Part shown: piece after piece, positions 30,101 through 63,992 of the stretch | How positions within the stretch are numbered: position 1 is the first letter of the stretch | Layout: every line of letters begins with the position of its first letter | From: Kangiella profundi | GTDB lineage: Bacteria; Pseudomonadota; Gammaproteobacteria; Enterobacterales; Kangiellaceae | Direction: 5' to 3' | Assembly (NCBI RefSeq): GCF_002838765.1 | Contig: NZ_CP025120.1 | Coordinates: 744,001-808,000 of the forward strand | DNA length: 64,000 bases | Translations under genes and position numbers: made by a program | Notes under the pieces: model-generated | Database searches by the model: none | What the model saw: the letters and a program-made list of their open reading frames with translations, nothing else | What the model was told of the DNA's origin: nothing

Positions 30101-31076
30101 CGACGTTATTTCGCGTGACATGAAAGACTTGCGTGCCATCTGGTCAGAACTGACCTACCGCATGCAGGCAATGCGCGATAACCCAGAATGCGCGCAACAG
30201 GAATACGACAGCAAGCTTGATCTGGATAACCCAGGTATCAAACCTGTAGCAACTTATAACGTTGATGAAAACATCGCTAAGCCTCTTATCTCATCTGGCG
30301 CACGCCCACGTGTTGCAGTGTTAAGAGAGCAGGGTGTAAACAGCCAGCTAGAAATGGCGGCTGCGTTCACCAAGGCAGGATTCGAGTGTATCGACGTTCA
30401 CATGAGCGACATCCTGTCAGGACGTGTGAGCTTACAAGATTTCACCGGCGCAGTTGCATGTGGTGGTTTCTCATACGGTGACGTACTGGGTGCAGGTGAA
30501 GGCTGGGCAAAATCGATTCTCTTCAACTCACGCGCGCGTGATGAATTCGAAGCCTTCTTCAATCGTCCTGATACCTTCAGCTTAGGTATCTGTAACGGTT
30601 GTCAGATGATGTCAAACCTCAAGGAATTGATCCCTGGCGCAGATCATTGGCCACACTTCGTGCGCAACCAGTCAGCACAATTCGAAGCGCGTTTCGCTAT
30701 GGTTGAAGTGGCAAAATCACCATCACTATTCATGACCGGCATGGAAGGCTCGCGCCTACCAATCGCTGTCTCACATGGTGAAGGCCGTGCAGAATTCAAA
30801 TCTGAAGAACTGGCAAAACAAGTCAACGAGTCAGGTTTAATCACCGCACGTTACATCAACAACTACGGCGATATTGCAGACACTTATCCAGCCAATCCAA
30901 ATGGCTCACCATTCGGTATCACCGGCCTCACTACAACTGACGGTCGAGTCACTATCATGATGCCTCATCCAGAGCGCGTAGCGCGTACGGTGCAGAATTC
31001 ATGGAGACCGGATGAGTGGAGAGAGGATGGGGCTTGGCAGAGGATGTTCTATAACGCCCGTCTTTCAATCGGTTAA
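27168..31076 (+). CDS. purL: Phosphoribosylformylglycinamidine synthase
   Basis: Large single-chain FGAM synthase, step four of purine synthesis, using ATP and glutamine. At 1302 aa it is the proteobacterial long form (1295 aa in E. coli). Seen in order: an N-terminal PurS-like part, two AIR-synthase-type halves ([34 protein letters not shown]), and a C-terminal glutaminase with nucleophile Cys1142 in GICNGCQMM and PHPERV near the end. ATG 27168 begins [14 protein letters not shown], as in the family. Divergent from mltF. No ordinary terminator follows; a structured repeat begins 21 bases after the stop. Confidence 0.98.
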
Positions 31077-31096
31077 AACTATCTTTTTTGCCTAAC

Positions 31097-31170
31097 ACTG
31101 CGTTACGAAGCTTTTTATCTTGCTCATGGACAACTAGTCCACTCCGCGAGCTAAAAAGCTTCAAGCCTTG
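31097..31170. repeat. Structured intergenic repeat, copy A
   Basis: Conserved block ACTGCGTTA (31097-31105) leads to outer stem GAAGCTTTTT (31107-31116) paired with AAAAAGCTTC (31153-31162). Inside are GCTC/GAGC (31122-31125 and 31148-31151) and an inner hairpin TGGAC-AACTA-GTCCA (31127-31141), flanked by CTCA before and CTCCGC after. CCTTG (31166-31170) closes the element. It starts 21 bases after the purL stop. A separate palindrome CCGCCAT-GA-ATGGCGG follows at 31179-31194. Sequence blocks are shared with copies at 46551, 63785 and 63920 while the stems differ. Confidence 0.85.
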
Positions 31171-31217
31171 TTTTACGACCGCCATGAATGGCGGGAATGT
31201 AGTAAGTCTATTTAGGA

Positions 31218-46550: not shown

Positions 46551-46626
46551 CTTCGTTAAATATCCTTAACTTTTTGTCTCATTTACTTCTAGTAAACTAC
46601 GCCAAAAAGTTAAGGCATTTGCCTTG
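46551..46626. repeat. Structured intergenic repeat, copy C
   Basis: Block CTTCGTTA (46551-46558); outer stem CCTTAACTTTTTG (46564-46576) perfectly paired with CAAAAAGTTAAGG (46603-46615); then CTCA and an inner hairpin TTTAC-TTCTA-GTAAA (46582-46596), CTACGC, and CCTTG (46622-46626). Same order of blocks as the copies at 31097 and 63785, but both stems have different, still fully paired, sequences. It lies directly after ffh. Confidence 0.85.
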
Positions 46627-46672
46627 CTCTAGTAGCTTTTAAAATTCTTAGAATGGCTTAACTCACTGATTA

Positions 46673-46738
46673 CTTTGTTAAAAATCCTTTTCTCGCAGGT
46701 TACTTACTGAAGTAAGCGCCCAGCTTGGAAAGGATTTT
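46673..46738. repeat. Structured intergenic repeat, diverged copy D
   Basis: CTTTGTTA (46673-46680) is followed by outer stem AAAATCCTTT (46681-46690) paired with AAAGGATTTT (46729-46738). The inner hairpin is TTACTT-ACTG-AAGTAA (46700-46715), with CTC upstream and GCGCC downstream. The fold and the leading block match the family, but the loop is altered and the closing CCTTG is missing. It lies in tandem with copy C, filling the gap 46538-46798 together with it. Confidence 0.6.
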
Positions 46739-46798
46739 GTTTCGCACTAAGAGATTTCATTTAGCTAGAAAGTGTGTCCCAATTTAAGGCAAGGTCTA

Positions 46799-63784: not shown

Positions 63785-63864
63785 ACTGCGTTATAAGACT
63801 TATTTGAGGTGCTCACGGACAACTAGTCCGCTCCGCGCCTCAAAAAGTCTTATGTCTTGTCTTG
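63785..63864. repeat. Structured intergenic repeat, copy B
   Basis: ACTGCGTTA (63785-63793). Outer stem ATAAGACTT plus TTTGAGG (63793-63801 and 63803-63809) pairs with CCTCAAA and AAGTCTTAT (63838-63853), with one bulged A. CTCA leads to inner hairpin CGGAC-AACTA-GTCCG (63816-63830) and CTCCGC. Two CTTG (63856-63864) close it. It begins 26 bases after the rlmD stop. The inner closing pair is C-G here and T-A in copy A, a compensatory change. Confidence 0.85.
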
Positions 63865-63919: not shown

Positions 63920-63992
63920 CTTTGTTATAATTCTCAATGACCTTCTAGGTCACCTCCGCTCTTTCGCAACTCTTTGCCGCGAGCTTAAGCAT
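63920..63992. repeat. Structured intergenic repeat, diverged copy E
   Basis: CTTTGTTA (63920-63927), CTCA (63933-63936), inner hairpin TGACC-TTCTA-GGTCA (63938-63952) and CTCCGC (63954-63959) match the family. The outer pairing differs: ATGCTT (63917-63922) with AAGCAT (63987-63992). It is tandem to copy B and close to the window end, so its right side may be incomplete. Confidence 0.6.

Follow-up and report, generated by a model that had tools for sequence, protein, structure and literature searches.

ERIC-like imperfect palindromes behind gene ends in Kangiella profundi, probable members of a widespread family of miniature mobile elements

The window analyzed here, a stretch of 64,000 nucleotides from Kangiella profundi (contig NZ_CP025120.1, positions 744,001 to 808,000), contains palindromic repeats immediately downstream of three genes, purL (copy A), ffh (copies C and C2) and rlmD (copy B) (Table 1). 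In copies A, C and B a long outer stem is followed by an inner stem of 5 bp that closes on a loop of 5 nt, and each copy is bounded by the blocks CTKCGTTA and (C/T)CTTG. As evidenced by direct reading and folding, they share an asymmetric internal loop in which TCA faces CTCC, or CTAC in copy C. A strict pattern scan of both window strands matched these three places only. An earlier note on this DNA had described three copies with shared unpaired blocks and covarying stems, and direct reading, folding and the scan found them as described, with some corrections of detail. The start of copy C was given correctly, but A and B each begin one base later than reported. The last block, given as CYTTG, reads TCTTG in copy B, and the outer stems, described as fully complemented, include by inspection one bulged A in that copy. 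The loop WWCTA is found in all three copies, but does not hold for the family as a whole.

Table 1. Repeat copies and their parts in the window, with E values of the covariance models R1 and R2.
Feature	Position	Strand	Context or letters	R1 E	R2 E
TAAAAC	31074..31079	+	purL stop codon and putative start of the outermost arm of copy A		
Copy A	31098..31171	+	after purL	3.8e-18	3.4e-13
Copy A, outer stem	31107-31117 with 31152-31162	+			
Copy A, stem	31119-31123 with 31146-31150	+	CTTGC with GCGAG		
Copy A, internal loop	31124-31126 / 31142-31145	+	TCA / CTCC		
Copy A, inner stem	31127-31131 with 31137-31141	+	loop 31132-31136		
Copy C	46551..46627	+	after ffh	4.6e-10	1.2e-9
Copy C, stems		+	outer CCTTAACTTTTTG / CAAAAAGTTAAGG; inner TTTAC / GTAAA; 3' loop side CTAC		
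Copy C2 (fourth copy)	46673..46745	+	second in tandem behind ffh	2.4e-4	
Copy C2, inner stem		+	CTTAC / GTAAG, GGT..GCC-type surround		
Copy B	63786..63860	+	after rlmD	1.5e-17	1e-12
Copy B, stems		+	outer ATAAGACTT(A)TTTGAGG / CCTCAAAAAGTCTTAT; inner CGGAC / GTCCG		
Probable fifth copy, tip	63933..63959 (genome 807933-807959)	+	CTCAATGACCTTCTAGGTCACCTCCGC, pattern match		

By direct reading, the TAAAAC that includes the purL stop codon is complementary to GTTTTA at 31170-31175, and would form the start of the outermost arm of copy A; in the fold this arm is partly and weakly paired. The tip behind copy B probably belongs to a fifth copy, judging from its letters, and that element would reach or pass the window end. 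A similar type is present in four further loci (L199, L201, L291, L298).

In the window genome (2.65 Mb), a covariance model built from six own-genome copies, R1, matched 27 places at E<=1. For 21 of these, C2 among them, E was 2.4e-4 or lower; the tip of the probable fifth copy was absent from the 27. Among the nearest relatives of the window's RlmD protein (E <= 1e-150), the first that carries an organism name is labelled Kangiellaceae bacterium, at 86% identity. All 16 same-genus genomes, the window genome among them, were matched with 9-35 copies each at E<=0.001, and one of nine other genomes of the order. The repeat family that the earlier note had proposed, with its constant unpaired blocks and its covarying stems, was borne out across the genome. 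The resulting genus set comprises 143 distinct elements from 147 matches in 120 sources, namely the window and loci mostly fetched for R1 matches. In two own-genus alignments, both fitted to R1 and hence biased towards its structure, 89.2% and 90.5% of the stem cells were paired (57.7% and 57.3% after shuffling, 31-50% in slid controls), the covariation score was 0.75 and 0.77 (shuffled 0.19 and 0.18, slid 0.06-0.16), and changes on both sides occurred at 21 of 21 pairs in each.

Outside the genus, the core pattern GCTCATTTAC-N(2-6)-GTAAACTCCGC matched at least 119 stretches, for a chance expectation of about one match (given both strands of 257 Gb, and a pattern with 21 fixed bases and five gap lengths). 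Hosts among the matches listed include Pseudomonas, Halomonas, Salinicola, Marinospirillum, Methylophaga, Nitrosomonadales, Mariprofundales and Vibrio and, in the Bacteroidota, Alistipes, Tidjanibacter, Tannerella, Prevotellaceae and Lentimicrobiaceae; as many of these hosts are MAGs, single cases may be contamination. From named-genome loci found by this pattern we chose 36 elements, free of own-genus sequence. Their MAFFT alignment showed 88.3% pairing versus 73.3% after shuffling, with nine of nine outer-stem pairs altered on both sides and a tip stem that is invariant because the search pattern had fixed it. A second model, R2, was derived from these 36 elements, whose hosts belong to Pseudomonas, Halomonas, the beta-lineage and the Bacteroidota; it contains no own-genus sequence and matches copies A, B and C (Table 1). 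Chance is excluded as the source of the paired stems, and by their model matches the window copies and the elements of other genomes can be grouped as one family.

R2 matched 109 of 274 genomes of the class, and the family is thus present in many other gammaproteobacteria, as had been suspected for marine ones at the outset; copy numbers in this search are lower bounds, since at most 16 candidates were scored per genome. Two Vibrio elements, from loci that had been obtained through the core pattern, and one Candidatus Fukatsuia (Enterobacterales) plasmid element were matched at E 1.5e-8 to 9.5e-8. With blastn, one Pseudomonas copy matched 16 of 72,556 plasmid records (14 Pseudomonas, one Halomonas, one Candidatus Fukatsuia), and in six of the plasmid regions no annotated feature lay beneath the match, the Halomonas record holding one feature in total. 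The same copy found no match in phages or, with a cut-off of E 0.01, among 20,395 records of E. coli, and copy B had none in the plasmid records. Rfam returned nothing fitting the element, either at gathering score or at E up to 1 on nine loci; of its four matches, two are miRNA-type hairpins in L133, one is a tRNA and one, in L151, is a weak L20 leader that overlaps the element's 3' end.

Several structural variants were seen along the way. An extra hairpin branch occurs at the second internal loop in L046, L053, L107 and L149, and a 187-bp variant with an extra hairpin branch in L037, L057 and other copies of G029, a Nitrosomonadales MAG. In the Mariprofundales loci L052, L076 and L111, TGTAACTACTCAG-type ends are accompanied by partial end repeats in tandem, and a string similar to these ends lies beside a G029 copy, in the 3' flank of L332. 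Locus L153 holds two elements of different types facing each other within about 300 bp (1270-1343 on the plus and 1501-1573 on the minus strand). Orthologous copies in four genus members (L302, L303, L316 and L319) differ by a compensated outer pair, GATTTTAG/CTAAAATC versus GATTGTAG/CTACAATC.

At the sites behind purL, ffh and rlmD, members of the genus carry different element types or none. For each gene 18 loci were read, out of 19, 20 and 19 genomes with a match; two of these 54 loci, L222 and L258, end at contig ends, so that the right place falls outside the reading. No element is present in the roughly 230 nt read after purL in genomes G028 and G011, and type B stands after rlmD in four genomes (G000, G012, G003, G025) and at the purL site in four others (G014, G001, G007, G009). 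The elements are mobile, as copies occupy different sites in relatives. In G029 the end motif was counted 241 times, 124 of them forward and 117 reversed, with a control count of 0. Among its 23 complete copies with flanks, two of which (L352 and L354) have one 3' flank in common, 17 are bracketed by exact 4-bp direct repeats, two by 3-bp repeats and four by none. The 4-bp repeats are CTAA (five), TTAG (four), TTAA (two) and one each of GTAG, TTAT, AGAA, CTTG, ATAA and CTAC; 15 of the 17 have a central TA. In the complete genome G151, inspection by eye found identical 4-bp repeats at six of 12 copies (TTAA three, CTAG two, CTAA one), a one-base mismatch at three, no repeat at two and a lost left end at one. 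Stop triplets at both ends were likewise seen by eye in named loci L113 (twice), L078, L097 and L103, with mismatches elsewhere, and no target duplication was seen by eye at A, B or C. In recently expanded genomes the copies thus stand between direct repeats of 4 bp, most of which conform to YTAR.

No mobilizing enzyme or transposase was found, the G029 survey covering about 100 of the 241 end-motif places. DUF772 transposases are present in four of seven genomes; at eight of nine such places in these four genomes no end pair like that of the element was detected, with single partial matches at three. An end-pattern scan of G151 gave 29 matches, one pair of which lies 675 bp apart and delimits a composite (L416, G151:C1:882320-882994) in which an ERIC-like element encloses further palindromic units and where inspection showed no long open frame.

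The position of the elements relative to genes is strongly biased in the window's genus. The nearest upstream ORF has the same sense in 128 of 143 elements and the opposite sense in 12, and none was assigned for three; these counts refer to uncurated ORFs of at least 80 codons, with own-genus orthologous copies counted separately. A stop codon lies 12-27 nt upstream of the CTKCGTTA block in 104 of the 128, and several of the remaining same-sense elements are second elements in tandem. Downstream of ten elements an antisense ORF ends within 50 nt, and for seven of the ten a same-sense stop codon is also present no more than 50 nt upstream. In the named loci (n=115) the sense preference is weaker than in the genus, with 54 same-sense and 43 opposite elements, 15 inside a predicted ORF and three without an upstream ORF, and in G029 five of 23 copies adjoin a stop codon. 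As CTAA and TTAG are reverse complements and about equally common in G029, insertion seems to be blind to orientation; together with the sense bias in the genus, this suggests selective retention. Note that 24 of the 27 R1 matches in the window genome run along the presumed replication fork, if the terminus is assumed opposite dnaA. A replication bias was set aside, given that 29 of 40 larger window ORFs run the same way (hand count, one overlapping ORF omitted).

According to the fold predictions, the strand opposite to the one read folds better. With RNA parameters this complement was the more stable strand in the genus set (117 of 143 elements), in the named loci (114 of 122) and in ERIC (five of five copies); with DNA parameters the corresponding numbers are 92, 112 and 5. 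The internal loops on the complement strand are rich in G and A, and on the top strand the second-loop columns contain C.T or T.C in 22 cells of alignment A3 and 29 of A4, against 0 and 1 for G.A. Wobble mismatches in three alignments, two of them model-fitted, number 83 G.T and 96 A.C on the top strand, a comparison of strand with strand within the elements alone that omits one conserved T.G column in each of A3 and A4. Selection on RNA pairing should favor G.U on the working strand, so that these near-equal counts fit better with pairing at the DNA level or with arm-copying mutation. Pairing therefore looks to be at the DNA level, and selection at the RNA level has become less likely.

For comparison we folded five copies of ERIC; the ERIC-PCR primers, in joined form, had matches in 5,373 of the 5,426 genomes of E. 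coli. R1 ranked the two E. coli ERICs top in two ERIC loci (6 kb), with weak E values of 0.065 and 0.071, and R2 matched them at a similarly weak 0.0088 and 0.029, the sole matches below E 1 in those loci. The blocks described in the earlier note agree with both ERICs at 18 of 23 positions, a value reached by one of 600 shuffled 3-kb strands; as the two ERICs are homologous, they count as one observation. In the reverse direction, an ERIC covariance model, R3, was applied to 138 kb of genus loci, and its top three matches are tips: L160 at E 0.011, window positions 46698-46721 in C2 at E 0.11 and L168 at E 0.31. Four further tips follow at E 0.48-0.65, with off-core matches from E 0.37, and A, B and C are unreported at E<=10. 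Of the three places that R3 reported in 15 named loci, the second and third (E 0.2 and E 6.7) are elements and the top-ranked one (E 0.081) is none. In view of the matching layout, the weak cross-model scores and the failure of R3 to report A, B and C, we call the elements ERIC-like and do not file them as ERIC.

Taken together, we favor the reading, with a probability of roughly 70%, that the window copies are ERIC-like miniature inverted-repeat transposable elements (MITEs), non-coding imperfect palindromes of a common layout. Outward from the tip, this layout comprises the 5-bp stem, the TCA/CTCC internal loop, a further stem and often a small second loop, followed by a long, freely varying stem, the CTKCGTT/GCCTT loop and finally lineage-specific arms. 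An enzyme acting in trans would move the elements, reading the folded or cruciform form rather than the end sequence alone, and a TAA or TAG stop codon can supply the YTAR-type 4-bp target. Within the genus, copies in sense with the upstream gene would be preferentially kept, probably because the transcript benefits from a hairpin in its 3' untranslated region or tolerates it.

The earlier note had taken the paired changes as a sign of selection on a folded nucleic acid. Paired change alone is insufficient for this, because template-switch correction of imperfect palindromes could also produce it; the persistence of mismatched loops speaks more clearly for selection. Such template switching is a mutational mechanism that copies one arm onto the other and would generate covariation without selection for a fold; that the paired changes arose mainly in this way we take seriously, at less than even odds. 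Near-identical type B copies in which two neighboring inner pairs have changed jointly (CGGAC/GTCCG, CTTAC/GTAAG, CGTAC/GTACG), the scarcity of one-sided relative to two-sided changes and the balance of wobble mismatches between strands all point this way. Arm copying should, however, erase mismatched loops, and TCA/CTCC and GTT/CCT persist from the genus to the Bacteroidota. It can in any case coexist with the ERIC-like MITE reading.

Immobile, cis-acting 3' untranslated RNA structures, terminators or stability hairpins kept for the host mRNA, would account for the position and sense bias behind stop codons in the genus, and a plain terminator-like hairpin was seen by eye after purL in some element-free relatives. 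We nevertheless consider them improbable in view of the target duplications and the movement between sites, the lack of a wobble preference on either strand, the occurrence of both orientations in other genera, and a terminator scan that was blank at A and B and gave one weak minus-strand site in the copy C region. A separate class of mobile palindromes that resembles ERIC through convergence rather than descent appears unlikely. It would agree with the weak scores between element and ERIC models, the lack of blastn similarity to E. coli and duplications of 4 bp versus the reported 2 bp, but is opposed by the shared succession of unpaired blocks, with TCA/CTCC flanking a stem of 5 bp and TGCGTT/GCCTT farther out, and by the R2 matches to Enterobacterales plasmid and pattern-fetched Vibrio elements at E 1e-8 to 1e-7.

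Among known systems, integron attC sites and REP/BIME are also folded repeats between genes. The attC sites keep structure over sequence and have complementary R boxes; here, inspection shows CTKCGTTA and GCCTTG to be non-complementary, and attC was rejected. Rho-independent terminators, which have a T run behind a GC-rich stem, were rejected as well, the scan of three regions giving 0, 1 and 0 sites where 0.3, 0.4 and 0.7 were expected. MITEs moved by IS5-like DDE-type insertion sequences, which use YTAR targets, are likewise short and non-coding, with inverted arms and a target duplication of constant length, whereas in the present elements the arms vary between lineages and the tip is conserved. 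An insertion sequence with matching ends was not found at eight of nine DUF772 places or through the G151 end pattern. REPs are described in PMC3733652 as palindromes of 20-40 bp with a GTAG or CGTC tag, and were rejected as the elements exceed this size and no such tag was noticed by eye. The earlier note's view of the repeats as lacking known kin was not borne out, as they are mobile, have inverted terminal arms and target duplications and are built like ERIC/IRU; the outcome that the note had named as a refutation, membership in a described class, thus applies in part.

We know of no enzyme for ERIC. Passages of PMC2229807 describe ERIC with 7-bp ends, a target duplication and TA at the termini, and an effect on the transcript in Yersinia, where an ERIC in the 3' region of an mRNA is reported to affect its stability (PMC2229807, PMC10969869). 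Parts of PMC10969869 place ERIC in the Enterobacteriaceae and Vibrionaceae, and parts of PMC2759123 mention TA duplications, a variant in Vibrio and a transfer mechanism that has not been elucidated. In literature titles and abstract openings, a coverage that omits most subscription journals, no such elements were described outside these two families, and a text search for the core letters returned unrelated titles among the matches listed.

The present elements share with ERIC/IRU/RU-1 the character of multi-copy, non-coding, intergenic imperfect palindromes of about 130-150 bp. As in the ~127-bp ERIC palindrome with its end-to-end hairpin, a 143-bp element folds fully and genus copies are similar. 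On the matching strand E. coli ERIC reads TGCGTT - CTCA - CCCCAG - TCA - CTTAC - loop - GTAAG - CTCC - TGGGG - GCCTT, and the five folded ERIC copies have their loop order and TCA/CTCC tip repeated in the elements: TCA, a 5-bp stem, loop and stem, CTCC, and TGCGTT/GCCTT as the outer loop. In both, the better-folding strand is the complement. Stems and arms differ, most present elements having GC or GG/CC next to the tip loop where ERIC has CCCCAG/CTGGGG; the primary sequence consensus is not shared, as the Pseudomonas copy without a blastn match in E. coli illustrates. The duplication is mostly a 4-bp YTAR-type sequence, in G029 usually with a central TA, versus a reported TA, and the host range is far wider. 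The elements are probably ERIC-like MITEs. Such a family would account for a common unannotated feature at gene ends, offers a structural signature for searches and, with its recently expanded copies, sharp boundaries and clean duplications outside the enterobacteria, gives new places to seek the enzyme that moves ERIC. In a bolder version, to which we assign a low likelihood, ERIC would be the enterobacterial branch of a mobile class that extends across Pseudomonadota and Bacteroidota, with an enzyme that recognizes the folded complement strand by its G.A-rich loops and conserved tip while the ends diverge freely and pairing and loops are retained, and that makes a fixed 4-bp duplication, often at stop codons. 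Were this true, folded-strand recognition would make the movement of ERIC and its relatives a structure-guided DNA transposition.
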